Shown here: one piece after another, positions 2,073 to 64,000 of the stretch
Layout: each line of letters opens with the position of its first letter
How positions within the stretch are numbered: position 1 is the stretch's first letter
Notes under the pieces: generated by a model
Databases searched by the model: none
What the model was told of the DNA's origin: nothing
Seen by the model: the letters and a program-made list of their open reading frames with translations, nothing else
Made by a program: the position numbers and the translations under genes
Assembly (NCBI GenBank): GCA_964017185.1
Contig: OZ024879.1
Location: 41,733,883 to 41,797,882, forward strand
Source: Rugalucina vietnamica
Lineage: Eukaryota; Mollusca; Bivalvia; Lucinida; Lucinidae
Direction of reading: 5' to 3'
DNA: 64,000 nt

Positions 2073-3524
2073 CATTTTCATATATATTAATGTGCATAAG
2101 TTTGTTTCTCTATATTTATATTTAAAATGAAATGGCTTCATAAATCCTAGTAACAATCGACCCCATGGGAGTCAAACAATCACAAGGAAAGTGAATAACT
2201 TCAATTTCAGTATTTATTATTTTCATTATCAAAATATAAAATATTCTGTCAGAGCTGCACCAATATATTGTTATCACATTTATTATTGAAGTGTTTATGA
2301 TTTATAAAGTCATTTATTTATATACAAATTTATTTATTTATTAGATTACCCAGCAGTCTATTCTGAAAAAGGATGTAAAAACATGATGTTATGAACATTT
2401 GTACAGCACTGAGTCACGGACAAAATTTCAAATTGTATTCAAAAAGATAAACTTTTATCCATTTCCTGCAAGTTTATAACCATTTTAATCACTTTGTATC
2501 AGTATTCCTCTATTTTATACATAAATGTCTGAATGAAGTAGTTTTCAAGTCGAGATCATAGTCAGAATCTATCACATGCCAGAGTTTCAACAAGATGTGA
2601 TCCGACATGAAAATTACACAACATTTTGTATCCAATTTATGAAGAAATCTGTATTTTTGATCATTTTTTTTTTGCTTCCAAGCAGATATAAAAGTTTAAA
2701 TTATAATGTTTTTGTTAAATACAAAGCACATTCAAAATCTGCAGGAATTTTACATTTTGGAGATTTTTCCAAGATCTGATATTTATTTCATTCTCAATAA
2801 GTGTTATCCCCGGTATGAATAATTCCTGTGTGTACTTAGCCATGACCCCTGTTTATGCTAGTGTAGAGGATTAAACTCACCTCATTTTCCATTTTCAGGG
2901 CCGAAAAATTTAGTTTTAATCTCAGAAATAGTTACATGAAATTATGACTTCTCAATAAGTGTTATCCCCGGTATGAATGACAGTAAGGCATAAAATGTGT
3001 GTGAACTCAGCCATGACCTGTGTTTATTTCCTAGTATGATTCAACTCACCTCAGACACCATACAAGTCTTACTTGATACAGGTACAAATGGTACAAGAAT
3101 AAATGACTTCTATATTAATTATAAAGGACCATATTGATTTAGAATTTTAAAGATCTAGATTTCGGCCTTTTGTCCCAGTCACCTAACCCCATTTCCAGAT
3201 CAAAAGACTAGTCCCTTGGATTTGATGGCATATATGGAATATAAGCCCTATATGTAGCCTACTTTTTCCAAGTATGCAGTTGTCAAAAGATGGACTTTGA
3301 GAAACATTAATATGAAAAGAGTACCACGTTCAAAAGATATTTCAGATTATTTTGATCTCTAGCCCTAACCCAGGTATGTACCGTACCATTTGGTGTCATG
3401 TCTTAGACTATAAGCTAGAATCATAAGGTTTTAATGTTATTCATTTGTCTGACAATATTGACATTAAATCTAAATCCATATCAGAAACCAACAGATATAA
3501 ATTTGATCAGAAATATATAGCTGG
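2073..3524. repeat. Interior of the composite repeat element, with diverged direct duplications
   Basis: There is no convincing gene. Two diverged copies of a ~100-bp block start near 2788 and 2947 (both with CTCAATAAGTGTTATCCCCG, then an AACTCACCTCA end). A second duplication links about 2575 with about 3655 (AACAAGATGTGATC) and about 3340-3530 with about 3710-4080. Short ORFs here look accidental. Confidence 0.55.
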
Positions 3525-3596
3525 CTGTCCATAGCGAACTTTCGCTATCGACAGCCGGCTGTCCATAGCGAACTTTCGCTAATGACAGCCAGCTCA
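3525..3596. repeat. 34-bp self-complementary tandem repeat, cluster B
   Basis: Two units of the cluster A palindrome with the shared variant TGTCCATAGCGAAC, flanked by the half palindromes TATAGCTGGC and CAGCCAGCT. Confidence 0.8.
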
Positions 3597-4077: not shown

Positions 4078-4160
4078 AGCTGGCTGTCAATAGCGAACTT
4101 TCCCTATTGACAGCCGGCTGTCAGTAGCGAACTTTCGCTATTGACAGCCGGCTGTCAGTA
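4078..4160. repeat. 34-bp self-complementary tandem repeat, cluster C
   Basis: About 2.5 units. It is preceded by AAATATATAGCTGGCTGTC exactly as in cluster B, so the flanking DNA was duplicated together with the palindromes. The outer edge GCTGTCAGTAGC mirrors the outer edge of cluster A (GCTACTGACAGC), so 1975-4165 may be one element. Confidence 0.75.
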
Positions 4161-4390
4161 GCCACTTCTTAAAAAAAATGCGATGATTATAATTTTATCC
4201 GCTCTTACAAATCTACTGTGATTCAGTTTACATCAGCTGGATTAAGTAAAAAAAAAATTTTTAGTTTTCTTTTTCACAATTAACAAAAATGTTAATTTTG
4301 AATGTTTTTCAATAGCTTAACACATAATTATTATTTAATGACAAATTATAAGTTTAATGCATACGTAAGCTTGTTAGAAAATCTTATACT

Positions 4391-12248: not shown

Positions 12249-14194
12249 AGCTCACCTGAGCCGTTAGGCTCACAAGGTGAGCTTATAGGATGGCCATGAT
12301 CCGGCGTCCGTCCACAATTTCAAAGATCTTCTCCTTTGAAACCACATGGCCAGTCAAAGCCAAATTTTATATGAAGCATCTATAGGAAGGGGGAACCAAT
12401 GTGTATATAAGAAATCTAGGTCACATGACCAAGATGGCCGCCATGCCCATATATGGTAAAAACCCTTCAAAAATCTTCTCCAAAACAGGTGGACCGATTT
12501 CAACGAAACTTGGCATGAAGCATTGATGGCTCAAGCTCTACAGTGTGTATATAAATCATGACCCTGTGATGACCTTGACCTATTTTACGGCAAGGTCAAC
12601 ATAGGTCGCCAATGCATTTGAATGGGGAAAACTTTTAAAATGTCATTTAAAGTGAAAGTCTTGCAAGAAATGGGCAGTAGGACTGAATATTAATGATTCT
12701 GAAAAAATTGGACACCAGGAGCTCATATGCCCCCACCCCGGGGCAATATATATGTACATTACCATAATATTCAAACATCATCTCCTCTGAAACCGCTTGG
12801 CCAATCAAAGACAAATTTTATGTGAAGCATCAATAGGAAGAGGTAACCAATGTGTGTATGAATAATCCAGGTCACATGACCAAAATGGCCGCCATGCCCA
12901 TATATGGTAAAAACGCTTAAAAAATCTTCTTCTCCAGAACCGATGGATTGATTTCAACGAAACTTGGCATGAAGCATCCATGGCTCAAGCACTACAATGT
13001 ATATATAAATCATGAATCTGTGATGACCTTGATCTTTTTTACGGCAAGGTCAACATAGGTCACCAATGCATTTTAATGGGGAAAACTTTAAAACTGTTAT
13101 TTAAAGTGAAAGTCTTGCAGGAAATGGGCAGTAGGACTGAATATTAATGATTCTGAAAAATATTAGACCCCAGGCGCTCATCTGCTCCCACTCCCGGGCA
13201 TTATACATGTATATTAACATAATAGTCAAACATCATCTCCTCTGAAACTGCTTGGCCAATCAAAGCCAATTTTATGTGAAGCTTCTATAGAATGGGGGAA
13301 TCGATCTATATATAAATAATCTGGTTCACATGACCAAGATGGCCACCATGCCCATATATAATATGGTAAAAAAACCTTCAAAAATCTTCTCCAAAACAGG
13401 TGGACCGATTTCAAAGAAACTTGGCATGACGCATCAATGGCTAAAGTACTACAATGTGTATATAAATCATGACCATGTGGTGACCTTGACTTATTTTACG
13501 ACAAGGTCAACATAGGTCGCCAATGCATTTGAATGGGGAAAACTTTTAAAAAGTCATTTGAGGTGAAAATCTAGCAGGCAATGGTCAGTAGGACTGAATA
13601 TTAATGATTCTGAAAACAAATTGGATTCAATGGCTTATCTGGCCCAACCCTGGGGCTATATACATGTATATTACCATAATAGTCAAACATCATCTCTGAA
13701 ATCACTTGGCCAATTCAAGCCAAATTTTATGTGAAGCACCTATGGGATAGGGGAACCAAAGTGTATATTAATAATCTAGGTCACATGAACAAGATGGCCG
13801 CAATGCCCATATATGGTAAAAACCCTTCAAAAGTCTTCTTTTCTGAAACCAATCGACAGATTTCCATGAAACTTGGCATGAAGCATTAATGGCTAAAGTA
13901 CTACAATGTATATATAAATCTTGACACTGTGATGACCTTGACCCAGTATATGGCAAGGTCAACATGGGTTGCCCATGCATTTGAATGGGAAAAACTGTTA
14001 AAATGTCATTTGAAGGGAAAAGCCAGCAGGACATTGGCAAACGGACAGAATATTGATTATTCTGAAAAAAGAAAATGGCCCAAGGGCTTCATCTTCCCCT
14101 GCACTGGGGTTAAATACCATAATATTCAAACGTGTTTATTGGTATATGCAGCAGATCTCAGGTGAGCGTTTACAGGACCATTGGTCCTCTGGTT
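12249..14194. mobile_element. Bivalve AGCTCACCTGAG element 2, with four ~453-bp tandem units
   Basis: Same left hairpin as element 1, but the right end is GAGCGTTTACAGGACCATTG, a second hairpin with GGTCC. The interior is four tandem units beginning near 12328, 12781, 13231 and 13689. Each carries in order CTTGGCCAATCAAAG, GTCACATGACCAAGATGG, AAACTTGGCATGAAGCA and TGACCTTGAC...GGCAAGGTCAAC. The units are too diverged and frame-broken to encode protein. Confidence 0.75.
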
Positions 14195-27336: not shown

Positions 27337-30180
27337 TTAAATAGAAGCCTTAAATTCCTCAATGGTCTTAGATAGGACCACTGAAGAAGGGAGACTATTC
27401 CAAACCGGAATAGTTCTGGGGAAAAAGGAATTTTTCAGGGCATCACTATAGGCAAATGGTCTTGTGTATTGTGATTCATGTGATGCCCGAGTATGCCTTA
27501 GATTGGGTGCCGGGGTCAGGTATTTGTCTTTATCAAGAGACACTGTACCGGAGTGTATCTTGTAGAAGAAGGTTAAGGAGGACCGCTCCCTGCGAGACTC
27601 CAGGGATGGCCACTCAAGTTCGTCTAGCATTTCACCGACGCTACTGGTGTTCCTCCATCGCCTGCAGGTCCACCGGGCAGCAGTCCTCTGCACCTTCTCC
27701 ACCATCTCAATCTGAGTTTCATGATAGGGATGCCAAATAGGAGCTGCATACTCAAGTTGAGGCCGAACTAATGTTTTGTATGCAACTTCCTTAGTATGCC
27801 TAGGTGCCAGTGCCAAATTGCGCCGAAGAAAACCCAAAGTCTTAGTTGCCTTGCATGTAATTTCAGAAATGTGTTGACCCCAATCAAGATCATCTGTGAT
27901 AGTTAAACCGAGGTATTTAGCGGACTGAACCTGTTCTAATGTTTGCTGATGCAGTGTGTAATTGAAATCTATATGCCTGCTTGGATGTAGCCGCGTCACC
28001 CTCATTGAATGACATTTGCTAACATTGAATTTCATTTGCCAATCCATTTCCCATTTGGCCAAGCTATTCAGGTCATCTTGTAAAATTTGACAATCCAATG
28101 GTGACTTGATATTTCTGTATAAAACACAATCATCAGCAAATAGCCGAACAGATGACCTGATGTTGTCAGGAAGGTCATTAATGAAAATAAGAAATAGGAC
28201 CGGTCCTAAGACCGATCCTTGTGGGACACCAGAAAGAACCGGGACTGGATCTGAGGCACGGCCATCTAATACCACTTTTTGAGAGCGCTCAGAGAGCCAC
28301 GAGTCGATCCACTTATGTGTAGATCCTCTAATCCCGTAGAAGTCAAGTTTGTATAATAACCTTTTATGTGGGACCTTGTCAAAGGCCTTAGCGAAATCCA
28401 TGACAATCACATCCATCTGCCTGTGGCCACGACCCACTGCTCGGTCCAGATTACTAACCAAATCATGATAAAACTGAACTAATTGGGTTTCGCAAGACCT
28501 TTGACTTCGGAACCCATGCTGACAGTCAGCAAGAATGTTTTCAAGAGCCAAGTGTTTGTTTATGTTGCTGACTATTATATGCTCTAGAGTTTTGCAACAG
28601 ATACAAGTAAGCGACACCGGTCGATAATTAGCTGCATCACATTTCTCACCTTTCTTAAATACCGGGGCTACATTTGCCTGTCGCCAATCGTCTGGTACAG
28701 CACCCTGAGCAAGCGACTCATTGAAGATATAGGTCAGTACAGGAGCAATTTCAGAACTACATTCCTTCAACACCCTAGCACTCAGGCCATCTGGCCCAGG
28801 CGCCTTATGTATATTCAAATTATTCAACAGTTTAATGACCCCATTGGGGTCAACTGTAATTTCACCCATAGCGGTGAAAGGACTTGTGCCTTTGGAGGGG
28901 ATTTCATCATCTGATTCGCGAGTGAAGGCTGACTGAAACTGCCTATTACAAATATTAGCCTTATCCAAAGTGTCAGTCTTCAAGATACCATTTTCTCTAA
29001 GAGTATTGATCCCAGACGCGTCTTTCTTAAGGGACTTGACAAATGACCAAAACTTTTTTGCCTTTTCATTTTTTCGGGGACAATCGGGATCAGGGTTATC
29101 ATTTTCAAAGGAGAAGATATTGGTAATATGCTTCCAATATGCATCTCTAATGCTCTTTTGAACATGTGCTCTGAACCGTTTGTAATGGTTCTTAATGTCA
29201 GGGCTGCTTGACTTGCGAGCACGAAAGTAAAGTTTATCACGTTTCCTTATCAAGCGTTTGATCGAGCTATCGATCCATGGTAAGCTATATTTTGTCTTGG
29301 TCATTTTTGATGGAATAAACCTTTCAATAGCCGAGAGAACCTCCGACTTAAAACTGACCCACATGTCATTGACTGACACCTGACTATGGTCAGTTGAAAG
29401 GAACGAATCCCTATAGCGCGCTAGATGGTCATGGAGACCGTCCATATCCGCTCGTTTATATAGGAAAATCTTACGCGGGGCCTGCTGAATCCGTTTAGCC
29501 TTTCTGTCATATTCAATATAGACAATGTCATGATCTGCTTTGCCGATCGGGGGCATCCCTTTAACACGGTTAATTGGGGATGGCGAGTTAGTGAAGAGTA
29601 AATCAAGGGTCTTGTCTTCTCGGGTGTGTATATTTACCATTTGGGAGAGGCAGTGATCCTGTATTATGTCCACAAGTTTAGTCTGAACTGGCCTCTTTTT
29701 GACCCCCTCGGGTACCTGCATTGTGCTCCACTCAATATCACCACAATTGAAGTCACCGCCTACAAGAACATGGGCATTTTTATTTGACATAATCCGAGAA
29801 AGTGAAGTATTAAAATCCTCAAGATATTTCAGTTCAAGCTCCTGAGTTGGGAACCTAGGGGGACGATAGAATGATCCAAGGTACAAAGTCCTACATCCAA
29901 TAATGTTCAACTTACACCAAATCATTTCGCACTTGGTGTCCAATTCCGGAGCTTCAGTACAGAGAAGATCACGCCTAAAAGCAATGAAGACACCACCATG
30001 CGCATCACTAGCTCTGTCTTTCCGGATAGCATCAAAGGAATCTGGAAAAATCTCTGAGTTTTTAATGTCTGGGGTTAACCATGACTCATTCCCCAATATG
30101 ATGTCAGGTTTAGCCGATTCTATGACAGTGTGAATTTCAGCCTTTTTATTTTTAATTGTTACATGACTGTCAGAAAAGTG
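27337..30180 (-). CDS. LINE 1: APE endonuclease plus reverse transcriptase, 5'-truncated
   Basis: The open frame runs from 30180 to the stop at 27337; 919 codons follow the first in-frame ATG at 30096, and the endonuclease start lies upstream of it. The endonuclease shows LGNESW (catalytic Glu), GGDFNC (about residue 115) and KADHD (about 188). The RT shows NYRPVSLT (about 490), the GFRSQRS block, FAKAFDKVPHKRL (about 567), SGVPQGSVLGP (about 625) and the catalytic FADD (about 651), then KYLGLTI. The C-terminus contains PVWNSLPSSVV, typical of the Jockey/CR1 group of LINEs, and there is no RNase H. The long uninterrupted frame suggests a fairly recent insertion. The 5' end stops at a TAA-containing junction near 30181, consistent with 5' truncation. 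Confidence 0.9.
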   Translation of the reverse strand, partial: HFSDSHVTIKNKKAEIHTVIESAKPDIILGNESWLTPDIKNSEIFPDSFDAIRKDRASDAHGGVFIAFRRDLLCTEAPELDTKCEMIWCKLNIIGCRTLYLGSFYRPPRFPTQELELKYLEDFNTSLSRIMSNKNAHVLVGGDFNCGDIEWSTMQVPEGVKKRPVQTKLVDIIQDHCLSQMVNIHTREDKTLDLLFTNSPSPINRVKGMPPIGKADHDIVYIEYDRKAKRIQQAPRKIFLYKRADMDGLHDHLARYRDSFLSTDHSQVSVNDMWVSFKSEVLSAIERFIPSKMTKTKYSLPWIDSSIKRLIRKRDKLYFRARKSSSPDIKNHYKRFRAHVQKSIRDAYWKHITNIFSFENDNPDPDCPRKNEKAKKFWSFVKSLKKDASGINTLRENGILKTDTLDKANICNRQFQSAFTRESDDEIPSKGTSPFTAMGEITVDPNGVIKLLNNLNIHKAPGPDGLSARVLKECSSEIAPVLTYIFNESLAQGAVPDDWRQANVAPVFKKGEKCDAANYRPVSLTCICCKTLEHIIVSNINKHLALENILADCQHGFRSQRSCETQLVQFYHDLVSNLDRAVGRGHRQMDVIVMDFAKAFDKVPHKRLLYKLDFYGIRGSTHKWIDSWLSERSQKVVLDGRASDPVPVLSGVPQGSVLGPVLFLIFINDLPDNIRSSVRLFADDCVLYRNIKSPLDCQILQDDLNSLAKWEMDWQMKFNVSKCHSMRVTRLHPSRHIDFNYTLHQQTLEQVQSAKYLGLTITDDLDWGQHISEITCKATKTLGFLRRNLALAPRHTKEVAYKTLVRPQLEYAAPIWHPYHETQIEMVEKVQRTAARWTCRRWRNTSSVGEMLDELEWPSLESRRERSSLTFFYKIHSGTVSLDKDKYLTPAPNLRHTRASHESQYTRPFAYSDALKNSFFPRTIPVWNSLPSSVVLSKTIEEFKASI

Positions 30181-34177: not shown

Positions 34178-35480
34178 TTATATTTTATAAAACAGATTTA
34201 CTTGTCTAAGAAATGATAAAATCTTTCCAACGGGTACATCTTTGAACAATTCTTTCAAGTTATTAGCTTGAAAACAAGAAATTCGCTCTGCTGCAAAGTC
34301 AGTGCATTCTAAAAGAAAGTGCTTAACTGTGAATGGTGTATCACAGCCAATGCATTTAGGTTCATCTTCTCGCTTTAATAAGTGGGAATGTGTTATTCTT
34401 GTATGACCAATTCGGAGACGAGCAAGAACGATTTCTTCTCGTCTCGAAAGTTTATGAATTGCTTTTGGTCGTTTAACGATCAGTTCGACTTCCCTCAATT
34501 TATCAAACTTCGCTCCGTTCCAGATTGTTTGCCATTTGTCAGAGATGTACTCGTTAATAAAAGGTTTAAAATTGACATAAGGAATTTTAAAAACAGTTTC
34601 TTCTAGATTTAACGATTCTTTAGCGTTCTTATCAACTTCCTCATTTCCATATATACCTATATGACTGGGAACCCAGCAATAGATAATTGTTTTCAATTCC
34701 GAGATGGTATGATGTTTTATTAATAGTTTTTGTATTTGAGGGTTTTTGGATGATGTATGGTTTAAGGCCTGTAGAACTGACATAGAGTCAGAAAAAATAA
34801 TAAATTTGTCCTTTAAGTTACTTTCATTTATGAAGTCTAAAGCTAAGTCTATAGCTTTAGCTTCCGCTGTGAAAATTGAAGAGCCATCAGGTAAACGTAA
34901 TGTTTTGCAATTGCCGTTTGTAAAAGTAGCACAACCAACTTTGTTTTCTTCTTTTGAACCATCAGTATAAATACATTGATAGTCAATAAATTGAGATTGT
35001 AGTTGATGAAAACTTTCTTTTAGAAGGTGTGGATTTGAGTCGGATTTTTTCCCTGTATGTAGAGTCAAATTAACTTCTGGTTTTCTAATGCACCATGATG
35101 GTATTTCGGAAACAAAATGTTCTTCTATTTTATCTTTTTGGATGTTTGCTGATTCTAAAAGTGGTGCAACCCGTAAACCAAAGGACCGGATAGCCCTTTG
35201 TTTACTTTCGTAAAGCTGTACGACTTCTTCAGAAATATATGGCGGAAAAGACACCTTATGAACTGGATTTGATGGATTAGCAGCAATTCTAATGGCGTAC
35301 TGTAGGGCAAGTTTCTCTCGTCGTAAATATAAAGATGGCTCTTCAGCCTCAACATAGAGGCTTTGTATAGGTGATGTTCGAAAAGCACCCAGAGCTAATC
35401 TTAGGCCTTGATGATGCACTGTGTCAAGAGAACTGATATATGATGGTCTTGCCGATCCATATACGATGGATCCATAATCG
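34178..35480 (-). pseudogene. LINE 2 C-terminal part: RNase H and zinc-knuckle region
   Basis: The open frame continues above the first ATG (35419) to about 35480, encoding DYGSIVYGSARPSYISSL and then a thumb/connection region. A type I RNase H domain follows with IYTDGS (catalytic Asp), AEAKAID (Glu), FSDSMS (Asp) and EEVDKNA (Asp), so all four catalytic residues are present. The C-terminus has CIGCDTP, HFLLEC and a short tail. RT-RNase H order with this tail is typical of the I/Nimb group of LINEs. It is separated from the RT half by the inserted repeat, hence pseudogene. Confidence 0.85.
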
Positions 35481-35521
35481 TCGGGCAGCTTACTGAATCT
35501 GTGAGTCCTGGCTTTTGATTC

Positions 35522-35981
35522 ATCAGGATGTTTATCATGATTTATTTGTTTGTTCTTGATGATTCATTTACTAGTTAGAGATTCACCACGAGGACCGAAG
35601 AACTAACTAAATGTTATGAACCACTGCAGAAGCTGAGGGTGAGGTTACGGCCGTGTAAAATCGATTTAAACCCGCCAGTAACTTTGTGTTACTGATCGTT
35701 CCAAGTCGATACTTCTGTGGTGGTTCTTTTTGTTTTGTGTCTTGGTGTTTGAAATATTTTTGTGCTGTTGGCGCCTTATGTATGTTTGCAAAATTTTTAG
35801 TTAAGTTAAGGTAACTGAGTGGCCACCTATTGGGAAAATAGCTGCTCATTCGGCTTACGAAATGTTTTCATGGTATAAGTACCTGATTGTTAGTTTGGTT
35901 TTTTTCCCACCTTGGTTTTTGGAGTGGGAGTCTTTTTCTGATTGCGCATTTTCCTGATCTTTGCCTACTTGTACTTTTTGT
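35522..35981. repeat. Dispersed ~460-bp repeat, copy 1, inserted in LINE 2
   Basis: Begins ATCAGGATGTTTATCATG and ends CCTGATCTTTGCCTACTTGT. It is almost identical to 42863-43321 and has a diverged partial copy at 30841-31125. It carries an 80-codon frame (35607-35849, minus) conserved in the second copy, which may be chance or a remnant of a larger element. Confidence 0.75.
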
Positions 35982-37092
35982 CTAATTTTGAACGAATGAG
36001 GGAACGGTATAGCTGGAGAAGGACAGTGCGATCAGCACCCCAGTCTGTGTGTGATAATACTTTCAGTAAGTTTAATTCTTTTAGGCACTTGGCCTTTAAG
36101 TACTTAATATGTGGTATGAAAGAAAGTTTACGATCAAAAAGAACTCCAAGAAATTTAAAATCTTCAACTACTGGAATAAGAGACCCATATAAGTAAAGTT
36201 CAGGATCGTTGTGTACTTTCCGTAATTGACAGAAATGCACACATTGTGTTTTCGACTTGGAAAATTTGAAATCATTATGTGAGGCCCAGTTTTCTATTCT
36301 GTTAATGCACTGCTGTAAGTGCCTCTCGATAGTTCTCATACTTTTTGACCTGTAACACATACAGAAATCATCTACATATAAGGATCCATCTGTTTTAGGA
36401 TCCAGACAGTTCATTATGCTGTTTATCTTAATATTGAACAAAGTTGTAGACAAGATGCTCCCTTGTGGAACACCCTGTGCTTGATCAATTTTTTCGGATA
36501 AAGTCGATCCAACACGAACCTGGATCCAACGATCCGCAAGGAAATTTTCAATAAATGTAGCTAATCTGCCTCGTAGTCCGAGATCATGTAGATCTCGCAT
36601 AATACCATGTCTCCAGGTGGTATCATAAGCTTTTTCCAAGTCGAAAAACACAGCAACAACATGCTCCTTTGCAACAAAGGCATCACGAATAAAGGTTTCC
36701 AGTCTAATTAAATTGTCGTTGGTACTTCGTTCAGAACGGAAGCCCGACTGAACAGGAGATATTAGGTTATTACTTTCTAAGTACCATACAAGTCTTACAT
36801 TTATCATTCTCTCTAAGGTTTTGCAAAGACAACTTGTAAGTGCTATCGGTCTATAGCTGTTAGGTTCTGCATGATCTTTTCCAGGTTTAGGAATTGGTAT
36901 TATAGTGGCTAGTTCCCAACTTTCGGGAAACTTTCCAGTTTCCCACATATCATTAAAAATATCTAAGAGAGCCTGAAGAGATTTTGGTGGAAGATGTTTT
37001 AACATTTGATAGTGAACTTCGTCGGGACCTGTTGCTGTATCATGGGCTTTACTGATGGCGTCTTTTAGTTCATCAAAATTAAATGGAGAATT
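35982..37092 (-). pseudogene. LINE 2 reverse-transcriptase part
   Basis: The frame is open from about 37092 and runs into the inserted repeat near 35982. RT blocks are PKPGKDH, NSYRPIALTS, SGFRSERST, FFDLEKAYDTTW (first catalytic Asp), AQGVPQGSILSTTLF and the catalytic YVDDF (about 36370), then FKFLGVLFDRKL. Above 37092 the coding continues in another frame to about 37190 (SEEFQKYKKEQEKTK), so there is one frameshift. The endonuclease domain is missing through 5' truncation. Confidence 0.85.
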
Positions 37093-37217
37093 GTATATTC
37101 TTCATTATTTGAGGACTTAAAGTTTAATTTAGTCTTTTCCTGTTCTTTCTTGTATTTTTGAAATTCCTCCGAATAATGACTGGTTGAGGAATTTGAACAA
37201 AATCATTTAAGCGATGC

Positions 37218-51980: not shown

Positions 51981-53547
51981 CTATCTGTCAATGGCACAAT
52001 ATACAAGTTTATGATCAGACCAATAAGCCTCGATAACATCACAAAATCCTTCAGAATTTGAAAAGATTAAATCTAGTACTGAACCAGAGACAGTCGTACA
52101 TTGCTTGATTTGCTGCATACATACAAATAATGTCTCCACAAAGTTTACAAATTCTGTATTTGCATCATCTATCTGTATGTTGAAATCACCTAAAATGACT
52201 AATTTAGCATTTAGATCAACAGCTGGCCTAAGATGACAGAGAATATCCTTTCGAAAATCAGTTTGTAAACTTTTTGGGTATTTGTACAACACAACAACTT
52301 GAATATACCCTTTCTGAATGCTGAATATACCAACGAATATGAATTCAAATGACTTGCACTGCGACTTCATAACCTTTTGAATCTGAAAATATTCCTTCAC
52401 ATATAAGGCAAGTCCATGAAATGGCCTCTTCACTGATTCTTTTTCTGTGTCATCAAGTCTTATAAGCCTGAATCGTTTCAGAGCAAAATGTACATTTTCA
52501 TCCCTTTTGCATAACCTTGTTTCAGCAAATCCAATGACATCTGATGCCAACACATTTGGTTCAAATTCAACATCCTTAAAGTGTTTATGCAAGGATCTAG
52601 CATTGTTGAATGCGATTTTGGTTTTACCAGGATCAATTTTATACAGTGGAACATAACAGAGCTCTAAAGCAGCTTCTGTGCGTAGCCTTTGCATCTCTAT
52701 ATTCACCTGATTATCTATAGCCATGGTATCTTCATTCATGTTCAATATATATAAATCATCCAGCTTTTTCACTCTACTGAATGCAACATAGTGCATATGT
52801 GGCATTATGTACTTTCTGGGTTTCCCATATCTGTCCTCTGCCTGGGATAAATCAACAACTACCCTGTCTACTGTTGCACCTTCAGCCTTGTAGACTGTTT
52901 TACCTGAAGCTGGTGTCACTGGAAATTGGCTTCTCTGGAACGTTTTATAAATATATATAAATGTCCGTTGTATTTCAAAAACAGGTGTCCAATCTGGACT
53001 GAGCTGTAGATTTTTTTTTTTTTTTTTTTTTTTTCACGTGTTGCCCTTCCAACTCGGGGGTCAACAAAACCCAAATGATGCTTGGACGATTTGTTCCTTC
53101 CATCCATCTAAAGTCAATGTGTTTCACCACACCTGTAGCACCACTGGTTAAACCGTCTTCAACATCCACATTTGCTGTATGAACAACAATCATTCCTTCA
53201 ACAACTGTCAATGACTTCATTAATTGGCCAGTTTTCCCATATTCTTTTGGAAGCGCAGCAATCAAGGACTGGCACCTTTTAGCCGGAATATTTTGTGTGA
53301 CAACAATATCATGGCATTGTATAACAATCTTTTCTCCCGGCAATTGACTCAAAATAGTGTCATTGTACTGGTCTACAAAACAATTCTCAACAAATAAATG
53401 AAGGGCGTCCTTCGGGTAGTCACCAGTATCACGATCAACAACACGTGCCTGCAACTTTTGTTTGTCTTCCTCTGTCATTTCATTCAATCGAAGTCGATTT
53501 AACAGCCGTGCAAATGCAAGATCATCTTTCTGCCTCATGATATCAAC
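51981..53547 (-). pseudogene. Helentron protein, C-terminal half: PIF1-like helicase end plus APE-type endonuclease
   Basis: Helentrons encode a Rep-helicase protein with an added C-terminal endonuclease. The minus strand begins at the satellite boundary with DIMRQKDDLAFARLLNRLR. It continues through LPGEKIVIQCHDIV, then MIVVHTANVDVEDGLTSGATG, FVDPRVGRATRE, GKTVYKAEGATVDRVVVDLS and YVAFSRVKKLDDLYILN (helicase motif VI region). The endonuclease follows, with NNARSL, GFAETRL, LGDFNIQ, and WSDHKLV; its catalytic Asn, Glu, Asp and His are all present. The frame shifts near 53062 and at a 20+ A run (53012-53034). The Rep domain and helicase motifs I-III are missing, replaced by the satellite array. 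Confidence 0.85.
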
Positions 53548-56500
53548 CGGCAAAATAGGGGTACAAAGATGACCGAAAATGGGACATTGGGAAAGGTGAA
53601 CATTCATGGGTTTGGGGGTGGGGTATGAGGCACCCCTGTCATTGACGTGCGCGGAATTTAGGGAGCAAGCGACCAAGTGGGATTTACAGTAGAAGGGATG
53701 TACTTTCAGACCACATAAGCGGCTATGCCGGGAAAACTCTAGTTTTCGAGAAATATGGGTACAAACATGACCGAAAATGGAAATTTCTGTATAGTATTGC
53801 AATGTGTCGGTACCAACTCGGGCTGGTTTCTCACAGAGCCCCACCGAGTTTAGGGAGTTCGAAACCCAGTGGGGCTTGTAGTCCATACAAGTGCCTTTAC
53901 AGCCCATAGGTCGGTTATACTGGGAAAACTCTGGTTTGTCGGAAATTTCAACTCAAACATTGGGAAACGTGAACATTCATGGGTTTGGGGGTGGGGTATG
54001 AGGCACCCCTGTCATTCTTGTGCGCGGAGTTTAGGGAGCAAGCGACCTAGTGGGATTTACAGTAGAAGGGATGTACTTTCAGACCACATAAGCGGCTATG
54101 CCGGGAAAACTCTAGTTTTTGAGAAATAGGGTTACAAAGATGACCGAAAATGGAAATTTTTGTATAGTATTGCAATGTGTCGGTACCAACTCGGAGTGGT
54201 TTCTCACAGAACCCCACCGAGTTTAGGGAGTTCGAGACCCATTTGGGCTAGTGCCTTTACAGCCCATAGGTCGGTTATACTGAGAAAACTCTGGTTTGTC
54301 GGAAATTTTAACTCAAACATTGGGAAACGTGAACATTCATGGGTTTGGGGATGGGGTATGAGGCACCCCTGTCATTGACGTGCGCGGAGTTTAGGGAGCA
54401 AGCGACCTAGTGGGATTTACAGTAGAAGGGATGTACTTTCAGACCACATAAGCGACTATGCCGGGAAAACTCTAGTTTTTGAGAAATAGGGGTACAAAGA
54501 TAACCGAAAATGGAAATTTCTGTATAGTATTGCAATGTGTCGGTACCAACTCGGGCTGGTTTCTCACAGAACCCCACCGAGTTTAGGGAGTTCGAGACCC
54601 AGTGGGGCTTGTAGTCCATACAAGTGCCTTTACAGCCCATAGGTCGGTTATACTGGGAAAACTCTGGTTTGTCGGAAATTTCAACTCAAACATTGGGAAA
54701 CGTGAACATTCATGGGTTTGGGGGTGGGGTATGAGGCACCCCTGTCATTGTTGTGCGCGGAGTTTAGGGAGCAAGCGACCTAGTGGGATTTACAGTAGAA
54801 GGGATGTACTTTCAGACCACATAAGCGGCTATGCCGGGAAAACTCTAGTTTTCGAGAAATAGGGGTACAAAGATGACCAAAAATGGAAATTTCTGTAGAG
54901 TATTGCAATGTGTCGGTACCAACTCGGGCTGGTTTCTCACAGAACCCCACCGAGTTTAGGGAGTTCGAGACCCAGTGGGGCTTGTAGTCCATACAAGTGC
55001 CTTTACAGCCCATAGGTCGGTTATACTGGGAAAACTCTGGTTTGTCGGAAATTTCAACTCAAACATTGGGAAACGTGAACATTCATGGGTTTGGGGGTGG
55101 GGTATGAGGCACCCCTGTCATTGTTGTGCGCGGAGTTTAGGGAGCAAGCGACCTAGTGGAATTTATAGTAGAAGGGATGTACTTTCAGACCACATAAGCG
55201 GCTATGCCGGGAAAACTCTAGTTTTCGAGAAATAGGGGTACAAACATGACCGAAAATGGAAATTTCTGTATAGAATTGCAATGTGTCGGTACCAACTCGG
55301 GCTGGTTTCTCACAGAGCCCCACCGAGTTTAGGGAGTTCGAAACCCAGTGGGGCTTGTAGTCCATACAAGTGCCTTTACAGCCCATAGGTCGGTTATACT
55401 AGGAAAACTCTGGTTTGTCGGAAATTTCAACTCAAACATTGGGAAACGTGAACATTCATGGGTTTGGGGGTGGGGTATGAGGCACCCCTGTCATTGTTGT
55501 GCGCGGAGATTAGGGAGCAAGCGACCTAGTGGGATTTACAGTAGAAGGGATGTACTTTCAGACCACATAAGCGGCTATGCCGGGAAAACTCTAGGTTTTG
55601 AGAAATAGGGGTACAAAGATGACCGAAAATGGAAATTTCTATATAGTATTGCAATGTGTCGGTACCAACTCGGGCTGGTTTCTCACAGAACCCCACCGAG
55701 TTTAGGGAGTTCGAGACCCAGTGGGGCTTGTAGTCCATACAAGTGCCTTTACAGCCCATAGGTCGGTTATACTGGGAAAACTCTGGTTTGTCGGAAATTT
55801 CAACTCAAACATTGGGAAACGTGAACATTCATGGGTTTGGGGATGGGGTATGAGGCACCACTGTCATTGACGTGCGCGGAGTTTAGGGAGCAAGCGACCT
55901 AGTGGGATTTACAGTAGAAGGGATGTACATTCAGACCACATAAGCGGCTATGCCGGGAAAACTCTAGTTTTCGAGAAATAGGGGTACAAACATGACCGAA
56001 AATGGAAATTTTTGTATAGTATTGCAATGTGTCGGTACCAACTCGGGCTGGTTTCTCACAGAACCCCACCGAGTTTAGGGAGTTCGAGACCCATTTGGGC
56101 TTGTAGTCCATACAAGTGCCTTTACAGCCCATAGGTCGGTTATACTGGGAAAACTCTGGTTTGTCGGAAATTTTAACTCAAACATTGGAAAACGTGAATA
56201 TTCATGGGTTTGGGGGTGGGGTATGAGGCACCCCTGTCATTGACGTGCGCGGAGTTTAGGGAGCAAGCGACCTAGTGGGATTTACAGTAGAAGGGATGTA
56301 CTTTCAGACCACATAAGCGGCTATGCCGGGAAAACTCTAGTTTTTGAGAAATAGGGGTACAAAGATGACCGAAAATGGAAATTTCTGTATAGTATTGCAA
56401 TGTGTCGGTACCAACTCGGGCTGGTTTCTCACAGAACCCCACCGAGTTTAGGGAGTTCGAGACCCAGTGGGGCTTGTAGTCCATACAAGTGCCTTTACAG

Positions 56501-59084
56501 CCCATAGGTCGGTTATACTGGGAAAACTCTGGTTTGTCGGAAATTTCAACTCAAACATTGGGAAACGTGAACATTCATGGGTTTGGGGGAGGAGTATGAG
56601 GCACCCCTGTCATTGACGTGCGCAGAGTTTAGGTAGCAAGCGACCTAGTGGGATTTACAGTAGAAGGAATGTACTTTCAGACAACATAAGCGGCTATGCC
56701 GGGAAAACTCTAGTTTTCGAGAAATAGGGGTACAAAGATGACCGAAAATGGAAATTTCTGTATAGTATTGCAATGTGTCGGTACCAACTCGGGCTGGTTT
56801 CTCACAGAACCCCACCGAGTTTAGGGAGTTCGAGACCCAATGGGGCTTGTAGTCCATACAAGTGCCTTTACAGCCCATAGGTCGGTTATACTGGGAAAAC
56901 TCTGGTTTGTCGGAAATTTCAACTCAAACATTGGGAAACGTGAACATTCATGGGTTTGGGGGTGGGGTATGAGGCACCCCTGTCATTGACGTGCGCGGAG
57001 TTTAGGGAGCAAGCGATCTAATGGGATTTACAGTAGAAGGGATGTACTTTCAGACCACATAAGCGGCTATGCCGGGAAAACTCTAGTTTTCGAGAAATAG
57101 GGGTACAAACATGACCGAAAATGGAAATTTCTGTATAGTATTGCAATGTGTCGGTACCAACTCGGGCTGGTTTCTCACAGAGCCCTCACGAGTTTAGGGA
57201 GTTCGAAACCCAGTGGGGCTTGTAGTCCATACAAGTGCCTTTACAGCCCATAGGTCGGTTATACTGGGAAAACTCTGGTTTGTCGGAAATTTCAACTCAA
57301 ACATTGGGAAACGTGAACATTCATGGGTTTGGGGGTGGGGTATGAGGCACCCCTGTCATAGTTGTGCGCGGAGTTTAGGGAGCAAGCGACCTAGTGGGAT
57401 TCACAGTAGAAGGGATGTACTTTCAGACCACATAAGCGGCTATGCCGGGAAAACTCTAGTTTTCGAGAAATAGGGTTACAAAGATGACCGAAAATGGAAA
57501 TTTCTGTATAGTATTGCAATGTGTCGGTACCAACTCGGGCTGGTTTCTCACAGAACCCCACCGAGTTTAGGGAGTTCGAGACCCATTTGGGCTTGTAGTC
57601 CATACAAGTGCCTTTACAGCCCATAGGTCGGTTATACTGGGAAACTCTGGTTTGTCGGAAATTTTAACTCAAACATTGGGAAAGGTGAACATTCATGGGT
57701 TTGGGGGTGGGGTATGAGGCACCCCTGTCATTGACGTGCGCGGAGTTTAGAGAGCAAGCGACCTAGTGGGATTTACAGTAGAAGGGATTTACTTTCAGAC
57801 CACATAAGCGGCTATGCCGGGAAAGCTCTAGTTTTCGAGAAATAGGGGTACACAATGACCAAAAATGGAAATTTCTGTATAGTATTGCAATGTGTCGGTA
57901 CCAACTCGGGCTGGTTTCTCACAGAGCCCCACCGAGTTAAGGGAGTTCGAAACCCAGTGGGGCTTGTAGTCCATACAAGTGCCTTTACAGCCCATAGGTC
58001 GGTTATACTAGGAAAACTCTGGTTTGTCGGAAATTTCAACTCAAACATTGGGAAACGTGAACATTCATGGGTTTGGGGGTGGGGTATGAGGCACCCCTGT
58101 CATTGTTGTGCGCGGAGATTAGGGAGCAAGCGACCTAGTGGAATTTATAGTAGAAGGGATGTACTTTCAGACCACATAAGCGGCTATGCCGGGAAAACTC
58201 TAGTTTTCGAGAAATAGGGGTACAAACATGACCGAAAATGGAAGTTTCTGTATAGTATTGCAATGTGTCGGTACCAACTCGGGCTGGTTTCTCACAGAGC
58301 CCCACCGAGTTAAGGGAGTTCGAAACCCAGTGGGGCTTGTAGTCCATACAAGTGCCTTTACAGCCCATAGGTCGGTTATACTAGGAAAACTCTGGTTTGT
58401 CGGAAATTTCAACTCAAACATTGGGAAACGTGAACATTCATGGGTTTGGGGGTGGGGTATGAGGCACCCCTGTCATTGTCGTGCGCGGAGATTAGGGAGC
58501 AAGCGACCTAGTGGGATTTACAGTAGAAGGGATGTACTTTCAGACCACATAAGCGGCTATGCCGGGAAAACTCTAGGTTTTGAGAAATAGGGGTACAAAG
58601 ATGACCGAAAATGGAAATTTCTATATAGTATTGCAATGTGTCGGTACCAACTCGGGCTGGTTTCTCACAGAACCCCACCGAGTTTAGGGAGTTCGAGACC
58701 CAGTGGGGCTTGTAGTCCATACAAGTGCCTTTACAGCCCATAGGTCGGTTATACTGGGAAAACTCTGGTTTGTCGGAAATTTCAACTCAAACATTGGGAA
58801 ACGTGAACATTCATGCGTTTGGGGATGGGGTATGAGGCACCCCTGTCATTGACGTGCGCGGAGTTTAGGGAGCAAGCGACCTAGTGGGATTTACAGTAGA
58901 AGGGATGTACTTTCAGACCACATAAGCGGCTATGCCGGGAAAACTCTAGTTTTCGAGAAAAAGGGGTACAAACATGCCCGAAAATGGAAATTTCTGTATA
59001 GTATTGCAATGTGTCGGTACCAACTCGGGCTGGTTTCTCACAGAGCCCCACCGAGTTTAGGGAGTTCGAAACCCAATGTTTGAG
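53548..59084 (+). repeat. Left arm of the inverted satellite element: ~15 units of 373 bp
   Basis: Head-to-tail 373-bp units carry CCCATAGGTCGGTTATACTG, CATTCATGGGTTTGGGGGTG and CCACATAAGCGGCTATGCCG once each. Spacing is 373 bp except for a shorter unit near 57650-57850. The outermost unit is truncated: CGGCAAAATAGGGGTACAAA leads to GAAAATGG and then jumps to GACATTGGGAAAGG. Each unit is a dimer of two ~186-bp monomers, since GAGTTTAGGGAG...CTATGCCGGGAAAACTCTAG parallels GAGTTTAGGGAG...TTATACTGGGAAAACTCTGG. ORFs of 77-120 codons recur in every unit, but 373 is not a multiple of three and they show no coding constraint. Confidence 0.95.
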
Positions 59085-62000
59085 TTGAAATTTCCGACAA
59101 ACCAGAGTTTTCCCAGTATAACCGACCTATGGGCTGTAAAGGCACTTGTATGGACTACAAGCCCAAATGGGTCTCGAACTCCCTAAACTCGGTGGGGTTC
59201 TGTGAGAAACCAGCCCGAGTTGGTACCGACACATTGCAATACTATACAAAAATTTCCATTTTCGGTCATCTTTGTACCCCTATTTCTCGAAAACTAGAGT
59301 TTTCCCGGCATAGCCGCTTATGTGGTCTGAATGTACATCCCTTCTACTGTAAATCCCACTAGGTCGCTTGCTCCCTAAACTCCGCGCACGTCAATGACAG
59401 TGGTGCCTCATACCCCATCCCCAAACCCATGAATGTTCACGTTTCCCAATGTTTGAGTTGAAATTTCCGACAAACCAGAGTTTTCCCAGTATAACCGACC
59501 TATGGGCTGTAAAGGCACTTGTATGGACTACAAGCCCCACTGGGTCTCGAACTCCCTAAACTCGGTGGGGTTCTGTGAGAAACCAGCCCGAGTTGGTACC
59601 GACACATTGCAATACTATATAGAAATTTCCATTTTCGGTCATCTTTGTACCCCTATTTCTCAAAACCTAGAGTTTTCCCGGCATAGCCGCTTATGTGGTC
59701 TGAAAGTACATCCCTTCTACTGTAAATCCCACTAGGTCGCTTGCTCCCTAATCTCCGCGCACAACAATGACAGGGGTGCCTCATACCCCACCCCCAAACC
59801 CATGAATGTTCACGTTTCCCAATGTTTGAGTTGAAATTTCCGACAAACCAGAGTTTTCCTAGTATAACCGACCTATGGGCTGTAAAGGCACTTGTATGGA
59901 CTACAAGCCCCACTGGGTTTCGAACTCCCTTAACTCGGTGGGGCTCTGTGAGAAACCAGCCCGAGTTGGTACCGACACATTGCAATACTATACAGAAACT
60001 TCCATTTTCGGTCATGTTTGTACCCCTATTTCTCGAAAACTAGAGTTTTCCCGGCATAGCCGCTTATGTGGTCTGAAAGTACATCCCTTCTACTATAAAT
60101 TCCACTAGGTCGCTTGCTCCCTAAACTCCGCGCACAACAATGACAGGGGTGCCTCATACCCCACCCCCAAACCCATGAATGTTCACGTTTCCCAATGTTT
60201 GAGTTGAAATTTCCGACAAACCAGAGTTTTCCCAGTATAACCGACCTATGGGCTGTAAAGGCACTTGTATGGACTACAAGCCCCACTGGGTCTCGAACTC
60301 CCTAAACTCGGTGGGGTTCTGTGAGAAACCAGCCCGAGTTGGTACCGACACATTGCAATACTCTACAGAAATTTCCATTTTTGGTCATCTTTGTACCCCT
60401 ATTTCTCGAAAACTAGAGTTTTCCCGGCATAGCCGCTTATGTGGTCTGAAAGTACATCCCTTCTACTGTAAATCCCACTAGGTCGCTTGCTCCCTAAACT
60501 CCGCGCACAACAATGACAGGGGTGCCTCATACCCCACCCCCAAACCCATGAATGTTCACGTTTCCCAATGTTTGAGTTGAAATTTCCGACAAACCAGAGT
60601 TTTCCCAGTATAACCGACCTATGGGCTGTAAAGGCACTTGTATGGACTACAAGCCCCACTGGGTCTCGAACTCCCTAAACTCGGTGGGGTTCTGTGAGAA
60701 ACCAGCCCGAGTTGGTACCGACACATTGCAATACTATACAGAAATTTCCATTTTCGGTCATCTTTGTACCCCTATTTCTCAAAAACTAGAGTTTTCCCGG
60801 CATAGTCGCTTATGTGGTCTGAAAGTACATCCCTTCTACTGTAAATCCCACTAGGTCGCTTGTTCCCTAAACTCCGCGCACGTCAATGACAGGGGTGCCT
60901 CATACCCCACCCCCAAACCCATGAATGTTCACGTTTCCCAATGTTTGAGTTAAAATTTCCGACAAACCAGAGTTTTCTCAGTATAACCGACCTATGGGCT
61001 GTAAAGGCACTTGTATGGACTACAAGCCCAAATGGGTCTCGAACTCCCTAAACTCGGTGGGGTTCTGTGAGAAACCACTCCGAGTTGGTACCGACACATT
61101 GCAATACTATACAAAAATTTCCATTTTCGGTCATCTTTGTAACCCTATTTCTCGAAAACTAGAGTTTTCCCGGCATAGCCGCTTATGTGGTCTGAAAGTA
61201 CATCCCTTCTACTGTAAATCCCACTAGGTCGCTTGCTCCCTAAAGTCCGCGCACAAGAATGACAGGGGTGCCTCATACCCCACCCCCAAACCCATGAATG
61301 TTCACGTTTCCCAATGTTTGAGTTGAAATTTCCGACAAACCAGAGTTTTCCCAGTATAACCGACCTATGGGCTGTAAAGGCACTTGTATGGACTACAAGC
61401 CCCACTGGGTTTCGAACTCCCTAAACTCGGTGGGGCTCTGTGAGAAACCAGCCCGAGTTGGTACCGACACATTGCAATACTATACAGAAATTTCCATTTT
61501 CGGTCATCTTTGTACCCCTATTTCTCAAAAACTAGAGTTTTCCCGGCATAGTCGCTTATGTGGTCTGAAAGTACATCCCTTCTACTGTAAATCCCACTAG
61601 GTCGCTTGCTCCCTAAACTCCGCGCACGTCAATGACAGGGGTGCCTCATACCCCACCCCCAAACCCATGAATGTTCACGTTTCCCAATGTTTGAGTTAAA
61701 ATTTCCGACAAACCAGAGTTTTCTCAGTATAACCGACCTATGGGCTGTAAAGGCACTTGTATGGACTACAAGCCCAAATGGGTCTCGAACTCCCTAAACT
61801 CGGTGGGGTTCTGTGAGAAACCACTCCGAGTTGGTACCGACACATTGCAATACTATACAAAAATTTCCATTTTCGGTCATCTTTGTAACCCTATTTCTCG
61901 AAAACTAGAGTTTTCCCGGCATAGCCGCTTATGTGGTCTGAAAGTACATTTCTTCTACTGTAAATCCCACTAGGTCGCTTGCTCCCTAAAGTCCGCGCAC

Positions 62001-62460
62001 AAGAATGACAGGGGTGCCTCATACCCCACCCCCAAACCCATGAATGTTCACGTTTCCCAATGTTTGAGTTGAAATTTCCGACAAACCAGTGTTTTCCCAG
62101 TATAACCGACCTATGGGCTGTAAAGGCACTTGTATGGACTACAAGCCCCACTGGGTTTCGAACTCCCTAAACTCGGTGGGGCTCTGTGAGAAACCAGCCC
62201 GAGTTGGTACCGACACATTGCAATACTATACAGAAATTTCCATTTTCGGTCATGTTTGTACCCATATTTCTCGAAAACTAGAGTTTTCCCGGCATAGCCG
62301 CTTATGTGGTCTGAAAGTACATCCCTTCTACTGTAAATCCCACTTGGTCGCTTGCTCCCTAAACTCCGCGCACGTCAATGACAGGGGTGCCTCATACCCC
62401 ACCCCCGTTCACCTTTCCCAATGTCCCATTTTCGGTCATCTTTGTACCCCTATTTTGCCG
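59085..62460 (-). repeat. Right arm of the inverted satellite element: ~9 units of 373 bp in opposite orientation
   Basis: The orientation flips near 59080 within CCCAATGTTTGAGTTG, and units then run as reverse complements at exact 373-bp spacing to 62460. The last unit is truncated like the leftmost one (GACATTGGG joined to CCATTTTCGG in mirror) and lacks only 13 bp that the left end keeps. Unit variants appear in mirror order to the left arm, including the rare GTACATTCAGACC, TCTATATAGTATTG, GTAGAGTATTGC and CGGAGTGGTTTC types. Confidence 0.95.
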
Positions 62461-62909
62461 TCTTATTAGTTCTTTACTGACTGTTCCAGAACGGTTCTGT
62501 TGGGATTTATGTTTATGTTGTTTGTATCTTAATATGTCTGTAAGTCTACTTTGATTTGTATTTCTGTATTTGAAAATTCGAGGATGGCCAGTTTCTGTTT
62601 CTAGTGTCTGCCCCTATTGATGGCCCATTTTTGTTCCCATTCTCTGCTTTGTTGAACTCGTCACCTTTGTGTTTGCATGTTTGTCAAATGGTTACCCTGT
62701 CGGGGAAGAGCTAGTCGTCCTGCTTCTCGTTTACTTCTTAATATTTTTCTTGTTATGATTAAACTCCTTCCTAGTCGCTAGCTCAATTAACTGGTATGTT
62801 CGGCAGTGCTAGACAAAATGAATACCTCTACCTTCTATAGTTTTTAGTTTTAACCTACGATCATTTCCAATCGCGTTTCCAAAACAAAAATAAAGAAAAA
62901 ACAGCGATT
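62461..62909. other. Right flank of the satellite element, no gene seen
   Basis: AT/T-rich DNA without helicase similarity on either strand, so the Helentron gene does not continue on this side. Confidence 0.45.
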
Positions 62910-63035
62910 CAAGGTGTAGCCGTCCTATGTGATGCAAAGGCACCTTGACGGACTTCAGTTCCCTCTAGATATTGACCTCGCTAAACCTGGGGCGCCTTGA
63001 TAAGAACCAGTCGAAGATGGATACCTGGCATTGAA
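62910..63035 (-). repeat. Diverged solitary relative of the 373-bp unit
   Basis: GTGTAGCCGTCCTATGTGAT, GCAAAGGCACCTTGACGGAC, GACCTCGCTAAACCTGGGGC and AAGAACCAGTCGAAGATGGA align in order with GTATAACCGACCTATGGGCT, GTAAAGGCACTTGTATGGAC, CTCCCTAAACTCGGTGGGG and AGAAACCAGCCCGAGTTGG of the right-arm unit. Confidence 0.6.
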
Positions 63036-63179
63036 TTCAGAAAATTCTTTTTTACTCATTTGTTGCATTTCCACATTTAACCATATTTTTCTTGGGCTGT
63101 GTAGATAACTGGCTGGGATCAAATTTCTATGGACCTTAAATTTCATGTAGGCAGTTTCACCTGGTCCTGCTCGCAACCA

Positions 63180-63335
63180 AAACTGCTTCGGCTGTTTCGG
63201 CTACATATGCCACCAATTTCTGCTACTTCGGCTGGTCAGGCTACTCCGGCCAGCAGTTTCTGCTACTTCGGCTGGTCAGGCTACTCCGGCGAGCCGAAGT
63301 AGCCTACCTCGGCTGGTCAGGCTACTTCGGCTAAC
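63180..63335. repeat. Short-unit minisatellite CTACTTCGGCTGGTCAGG
   Basis: Copies of GCTACTTCGGCTGGTCAGGC alternate with TACTCCGGC at a ~45-bp higher period (63220 and 63265). The inverted stretch GAGCCGAAGTAGCC at 63291-63304 makes the block foldable. Confidence 0.65.
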
Positions 63336-64000
63336 TTCACCCATCTCATTTGGTGTCAGATTTAAGGTTCGGACGTTCGGAAACAAACATCCGGATGGTT
63401 CGAACGTTCGCATCTTTTGTTTTCGTTTCAGATCACATGTATATTAATCAAGTGTTCCCTTGAAAGAACATTCATTATCAAGAGTTACTGAGCTTGGTGT
63501 TGCTTCCGTTGTGACGCAGAAACGAAACGCCATATTCTTTAGGAAATTTTATTTACATTCACAAAAGTAACAAACATCATGCTAAAACAGCAAAACTAAG
63601 TCATTTTCAAAAGATCACGAACATTCACTGAGTTCCCATTTTGTCGAAGTGGCGCGTCAGCAAACTAATTTAGTCACATCATACATGTAGAAAATCTAAT
63701 TCTTAATGTGTTTCTTTGCATAAACGGGTCAGCTTTAGAATCCGCATATTTGATTTGTCAAATTAAGATCATAGTAAAGCATACTTGTTGTTTTTAATCC
63801 CAGAACATATCTATTAATCACATGTAATTTTGCTGGGCGGCGGTCTGTATAATTATTATATTTAAAACTTGAGAAGTCTGAATCAAATTGTTTTCTAAAG
63901 AAAACAACAGAGGCCAATTACCACGTTTAATCCTTTCTTTGTTTATTGTCGCTTCCCCGTGACCTGCATTGTCCCGTTTACCTTAAACCTTAGTGACCTT
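63336..64000. other. No gene seen
   Basis: Near 63366-63412 GTTCGGACGTTCGGAA and GGTTCGAACGTTCGC form a small palindromic block. The remainder is AT-rich and unrecognised. Confidence 0.4.

Follow-up and report, generated by a model that had tools for sequence, protein, structure and literature searches.

What gives rise to two satellite arrays that stand head to head with the variants of their units in mirror order? The question is raised by a locus of the lucinid bivalve Rugalucina vietnamica, in a 64,000-nt stretch of contig OZ024879.1 (hereinafter the window), where a tandem-repeat scan finds a unit of ~373 bp repeated over 53584-59075 on the plus strand and, opposed to it, over 59072-62406 on the minus strand. 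We propose that these arrays are, very probably, the body of a giant non-coding foldback-type DNA transposon, which would be mobilised in trans, would have derived its satellite unit from its own tip and would occasionally have one of its arms re-mirrored. The parts of the locus are as follows, with C3, C12 and C16 denoting three long copies read elsewhere in the genome.

53549..63346, no strand: the window copy of the very probable giant foldback transposon, without its left tip; its right end is common to C3, C12 and C16, and its left limit is set by the loss of homology to other Helentron-like copies.
53553..59074, plus strand: left satellite arm, units L1-L15 (units start at 53583).
59075..62455, minus strand: right satellite arm, units R1-R9, whose order mirrors that of the left arm.
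59070..59080, no strand: head-to-head centre, with a register offset of ~94 nt between the arms; each of C3, C12 and C16 has its centre at another unit position.
54503..55261, plus strand: 759-bp exact inverted match to 60000-60758.
55331..55990, plus strand: 660-bp exact inverted match to 59271-59930.
62456..63346, minus strand: right tip, a terminal inverted repeat that lies beyond the array and has the end TAACTTCACCCATCT; 96-99% identity to 39 other scored genomic tip matches, and present in inverse orientation at either end of complete copies.
62895..63059, minus strand: degenerate satellite unit within the tip (65% over 175 aligned columns).
63186..63332, no strand: subterminal short repeats of the tip (tandem-repeat rows, TRF) and a strong hairpin at 63292-63332, which stops ~14 nt short of the transposon end (DNA fold z = -4.5 for the 167-nt stretch 63180-63346).
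63347..63355, no strand: expected right copy of a 9-bp target-site duplication, CATTTGGTG, placed from complete copies; its partner was lost with the left tip.
51981..53548, minus strand: Helentron-like fragment, recognised from its open reading frames, which abuts the array edge and is not part of the element.

Cutting the arrays at a fixed anchor reproduces the head-to-head units L1-L15 and R1-R9 of the initial annotation, which had also held that the unit variants pair in mirror order between the arms. By mismatch counts, the proposed partners are closest or near-closest to each other: L1-R9 differ at 2 positions, L2-R8 at 4, L2-R6 at 2, L3-R7 at 4, L3-R5 at 3, L4-R4 at 0, L5-R3 at 3, L13-R3 at 1, L6-R2 at 0, L14-R2 at 1 and L7-R1 at 2; non-partner left-right pairs in this copy show 4-24 mismatches. 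Over seven units, the mirror order sums to 15 mismatches as compared to 66 for the same-direction order, and among the 5040 permutations of these units (with R5-R6 set aside as a repeat of R7-R8) the observed mirror order alone is as low as 15. When fixed-length diagonal runs were scored over the eight anchored right units, the best mirror run of the window copy was matched by none of 300 shuffles. The four motifs quoted as private to particular units occur exactly at those units and are absent from the stretches of C3, C12 and C16 that were read. In a maximum-likelihood tree, the left and right units of the window are intermixed and form no separate clades, with the left label undergoing 7 changes as compared to 7.4 for shuffled labels, and with supported left-right pairs. 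The unit distances are also consistent with two-unit block duplications having given rise to R5-R6 from R7-R8 and to L13-L14 from L5-L6, as had been suggested.

The initial annotation explained the locus by one inverted duplication, or by continued hairpin-templated copying, followed by such block duplications. With respect to the window copy, a single inverted duplication followed by block duplications fits both the mixed tree and the differences between partners, which are evenly spread along the arm (2, 4, 4, 0, 3, 0, 2) and hence favor one copying event. The arms share inverted stretches of 759 and 660 bp without a mismatch, and a search for exact direct matches of at least 373 bp within either arm gave none. 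However, the locus alone does not reveal that it is a truncated copy of a mobile foldback element with dozens of long relatives. Likewise, while the arrays themselves stand as annotated, the feature does not end at 62460: the inverted tip continues to 63346, which becomes visible only against other copies.

In the genome (1.09 Gb, 47 contigs), the terminal 27-mer of the element has 142 exact occurrences (72 forward and 70 reverse), as against 0 and 0 for a backward-pattern control; this number of termini would correspond to some 70 copies. The inverted ends are like AGATGGGTGAAGTTA. Among the first 100 of the 142 termini listed, 44 inverted pairs can be formed, leaving 12 listed termini unpaired; two of the pairs are tiny (215 and 277 bp) and the other 42 are long, ranging from 16.9 to 72.2 kb with a median of 43.0 kb and a sum of 1.84 Mb. 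Each array is bordered on its outer side by a tip of ~0.89 kb; the tips at the two ends are in inverse orientation and terminate at an identical base (...TAACTTCACCCATCT). Between the tips, C12 has opposed arrays of 23.8 and 18.1 kb; C16, as read, has 6.9 kb of plus and 32.1 kb of minus array, with ~23 kb on its outer left being left out; and C3 has 17.4 kb of plus followed by 51 kb of minus array. The minus arm of C3 also holds a foreign insert of 3.7 kb (local 62864-66549 of the joined C3 stretch), whose ends are like CAGTGAAGTCTGAACTAA and its near inverse and whose longest frame is of 125 aa; this is perhaps another DNA transposon. In nine further pairs, all 18 interior samples are array DNA, and eight of the nine read plus at the quarter and minus at the three-quarter point, the ninth being minus at both. 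Arrays in opposition are thus typical of the copies examined rather than a peculiarity of one locus. An ordinary satellite comes as arrays without mobile-element ends; here both tips and repeated termini are present. A free satellite inverted by chance beside unrelated repeats is what the window might suggest when taken alone, as it has only the arrays and lacks the left tip, but we find this reading hardly credible in light of the tips, the copy number, and the duplications and empty sites described below.

Copies of 17-72 kb inserted as units. Both flanks were read for 32 long pairs, namely 12 (C3, C12 and ten others) with perfect 9-bp target-site duplications throughout, and 20 more of which 18 have a perfect 9-bp duplication, one a 10-bp duplication and one none, giving 30, one and one in all. 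The 10-bp case, at C1:58596562, has TGATCTGCAA on both sides. The pair without a duplication (C3:76237742-76284370) has mismatching flanks as expected from recombination between two copies. In the 20-pair set, none of 380 comparisons of left and right flanks between different copies gave a match. Empty sites, judged by match coordinates, point in the same direction: when the flanks of the 70-kb C3 copy are joined, they align with four places over the full 400 bases at 94-98%, and with more at 84-88%; the joined flanks of the 44-kb C12 copy align with three neighboring places at 91-92%, of which two span 400 bases and the third spans 388. Thus, like foldback elements, the copies combine long inverted repeats made of internal tandem repeats with insertion as a unit accompanied by a target-site duplication. 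The 277-bp miniature (G000:C3:43192130-43192450), which consists of tip ends only, has its own perfect 9-bp duplication, suggesting that the tip ends alone are sufficient for movement; the 215-bp form is without one. These data also bear on the concern that the inverted duplication at the locus is a false one, introduced by an assembly or library artefact. Long inverted repeats are hard to assemble and the outcome here comes from an assembly, not from reads; nevertheless, the arms are told apart by substitutions, by deletions of 13 bp in L2 and 12 bp in R9, and by a duplication of two units, and the same anatomy recurs with other lengths, other flanks, exact 9-bp duplications and empty sites. 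Accordingly, we consider an artefact very improbable.

By definition, Helitrons and Helentrons lack both target-site duplications and long inverted ends, whereas the copies described here have exact 9-bp duplications and long inverted ends. The possibility of a Helitron or Helentron with a central tandem array arises as the Helentron-like fragment adjoins the array at 53548. Because its endonuclease match is below the Pfam cut-off and its array-adjacent frame lacks a Pfam match, the helicase and Helentron labels of this fragment (51981..53548) are presumptive. Most of the 41 scored genomic matches to this flank end at the same base, 53548, and three Helentron-like copies read past the corresponding point, where other sequence follows. 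Although Pacific oyster elements of such a type do carry arrays (PMC8268682), the fragment also occurs elsewhere, with an array-free continuation in the three places read, and 31 of the 32 long pairs have 9-10 bp duplications and long inverted ends; we therefore assign almost no weight to this reading. On the foldback interpretation, the left tip of the window copy would have been lost at the junction with this fragment. The breakpoint (53548-53553) lies about five bases beyond the array edge and has one base in common with the Helentron-like side; its closeness to the array edge may be due to chance or may mark the stop point of copying or hairpin cutting. Rfam and tRNA scans of 52900-64000 gave no match.

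Elsewhere in the window there are two LINE-like retroelements on the minus strand (27337-30180 and 34178-37101), in which one frame has reverse transcriptase and endonuclease domains and two frames have reverse transcriptase and RNase H domains. A separate 454-bp tandem repeat is present in 3.9 copies at 12320-14070, and a related 34-bp repeat that contains AGCCGGCTGTC forms three short arrays, at 1983-2069, 3519-3594 and 4078-4162.

With respect to coding content, C3 and C12 were read through to both ends and the window copy as far as its break, and none of the three holds a reading frame of at least 150 aa. They have 22 frames of 100-149 aa, one of which, an array frame used as a search query, has no Pfam match. 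Like the non-autonomous forms of foldback elements, these three copies have no transposase gene between their inverted repeats. Of the 59 matches to the MULE domain (PF10551) in the genome, compared by eye, none lies inside the pairs formed from the first 100 of the 142 termini. Searches for partner ends sharing only the last 15 bases gave no excess (28 as compared to 45 in the backward control), and ends sharing 18 bases, among the first 100 of 151 listed, were those of the family itself with no inverted pair 1-15 kb apart. A duplication of ~9-11 bp, as in the Mutator superfamily, is found in 31 of the 32 long pairs. From the 9-10 bp target-site duplications we posit that the mover of these copies is a transposase supplied in trans, most likely a Mutator-like one, which would act on the tips; the authors who described Tetris made the same argument from such duplications (PMC4079207).

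A whole copy comprises a tip of ~0.89 kb, a satellite arm, the opposed arm and the inverted tip, enclosed in a 9-10 bp target-site duplication, and a trans-supplied, most likely Mutator-like, transposase would mobilise it via the tips. The degenerate unit in the tip, being in the same orientation as the array, points to a common ancestry of the tip and the satellite. Hence, the 373-bp unit probably arose from inner tip sequence and may then have spread by block duplication within each arm; exact direct repeats are as long as 3695 bp (C12) and 2173 bp (C3). One arm would occasionally be recopied as the mirror image of the other, either via fold-back repair synthesis or via arm-to-arm conversion.

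The relationship between the two halves of a copy is best seen in the tips. Over their first 870 bases, 26 tips were compared, i.e., both tips of 12 copies and one each of C6 and the window copy. Tips of the same copy differ on average at 7.25 positions (range 1-17) as compared to 20.2 for those of different copies, and none of 100000 random pairings was as low as 7.25. Six same-copy clades are well supported in the tip tree (C3, C7a, C10, C12, C13a and C16c), although the bootstrap is not fully settled. Left and right labels are scattered over this tree and mean little because the orientation of a palindrome is arbitrary. For most of the 12 copies compared, the last common ancestor of the two tips is more recent than their divergence from the tips of other copies. 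The tips of C16b, in contrast, are not mutually nearest. Further, the four copies with arms read (C3, C12, C16 and the window copy) have four different centres, with register offsets of 54, 61, 172 and 94 nt, the last being that of the window. Together with the greater likeness of same-copy tips, this suggests that the palindromes are remade or homogenised copy by copy.

One account of this pattern posits a single ancestral palindrome whose arms have stayed similar through ordinary gene conversion between them, in the manner of sex-chromosome palindromes, and in which no copy has undergone a fold-back event of its own. In a set of 408 whole anchored units (partial units at tips and centres being omitted), the median distances between arms equal those within arms (5/5/5 in C3 and 7/7/7 in C12), which accords with this account; distances between loci are mostly higher for C3, C12 and C16, whereas for the window copy all distances, within and between arms as well as between loci, are 10-13. 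It also accords with C1a, C16a and C17, which have identical small differences between left and right tips in common, indicating that these copies moved without renewal and passed the differences on. The same observation rules out a palindrome rebuilt at every move. On the other hand, four copies have four centre junctions, although deletions could shift a centre. Moreover, both window arms share a tip-array junction that is unseen in C3, C12 and C16, and this private junction, along with the long colinear mirror order and the even differences, fits one event better than patchy conversion tracts. On balance, we regard the conversion account as a serious possibility that falls somewhat short of likely. 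More speculatively, the element could have a life cycle in which it rebuilds itself as a palindrome: after a break, a surviving arm of tens of kb would be recopied outward as its mirror by fold-back synthesis, restoring two working tips, so that large non-coding satellite palindromes would stay mobile, each lineage with its own fresh mirrored satellite. We offer this as a tentative and rather doubtful extension of the foldback interpretation.

Mirror order itself is found in two of the four arrays tested, namely the window copy and C3. In the test by fixed-length diagonal runs, the best run of C3 was reached by 8 of 300 shuffles, and C12 (141 of 300 shuffles equal or better) and the part of C16 read (281 of 300) displayed no mirror order. 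A register test on C3, in which the centre offset was known beforehand and the shuffles were given the best of three offsets, while the tip was tested at one fixed register, was matched by 0 of 20000 shuffles for eight centre units and by 18 of 20000 for six tip units. When the order of units was instead compared by rank-scored local alignment, the window copy stood apart from shuffles, but C3 did not. The tips of C3 differ at 1 site, those of C12 at 5 and those of C16 at 9, with mirror order being present in the first and not seen in the latter two. From these few copies, we infer that mirror order fades as the arms diverge and re-amplify. The window copy would have retained it owing to its short arms, which later rounds of block amplification would have left intact. 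Its units are the most diverse, with 7.3 mismatches from their own consensus as compared to 3.3-4.6 in the other copies, as would be expected for a short array spared amplification. In C1a, the units near the tips (3 per side) are very uniform.

Taken together, these observations link a satellite with a mobile element and provide direct evidence that units of up to ~70 kb, almost wholly satellite, have inserted. They offer a route for the block-wise dispersal of satellites over chromosomes, replicated dozens of times within a single genome. As the arms can be compared both within and between palindromic copies, conversion and re-copying can be tested against each other by counting. In addition, large palindromes would be expected to give rise to breakage and to double-stranded RNA.

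In the open literature, represented mostly by titles and the starts of abstracts, we found no description of a satellite-filled foldback element of this size. Sex-chromosome palindromes are chromosomal structures rather than transposons. The elements described here resemble them in having long inverted arms that are kept alike (PMC3723533). Galileo of Drosophila, a member of the P superfamily with 7-bp flanking sequences, has long inverted repeats that reach about 1.26 kb and grow by internal tandem repeats, along with inverted-repeat-only copies and chimeric copies without matching flanks, according to the parts of the source consulted (PMC3573991). Our elements likewise have inverted repeats of tandem units, inverted-repeat-only copies and a long pair with mismatching flanks, but differ in their 9-bp duplications and longer arms. 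Tm1, a Mutator/Phantom foldback of root-knot nematodes, has composite inverted repeats of tandem 13-15 bp units in elements of ~0.9-2.3 kb, duplications of 8-10 bp that are mostly of 9 bp (45 of 53) and small MITE forms; an element with a putative Mutator-like transposase is known (PMC3169594). It thus shares the tandem-unit inverted repeats, the 9-bp duplications and the miniature forms with our elements, while their unit and overall size are far larger and no coding partner was found among the termini listed.

By architecture alone, the closest known system is Tetris of Drosophila virilis (PMC4079207). In the parts of that account consulted, Tetris is a non-coding foldback in which each inverted repeat has a terminal domain of up to 866 bp followed by tandem ~220-bp repeats; a middle domain is enclosed by the inverted repeats, which are up to 1.7 kb long, the target-site duplications are of 8-10 bp, and no autonomous partner was found. 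Its terminal domain and repeat share a stretch, and the repeats group by copy in two of the three structurally complete copies, while longer arrays, with up to 66 repeats, are interpreted as satellite arrays within which the element may have been disrupted (PMC4079207). The likeness to our elements, which is one of architecture and not of sequence, lies in a tip domain and a tandem-repeat domain with sequence common to both. In contrast, the arms here are tens of kb long, roughly tenfold longer, and meet directly, and many long copies have intact duplications. To these differences may be added the mirror order seen in two of the present copies and the proposed copy-wise renewal of the arms, neither of which is part of the Tetris description as far as it was consulted (PMC4079207).
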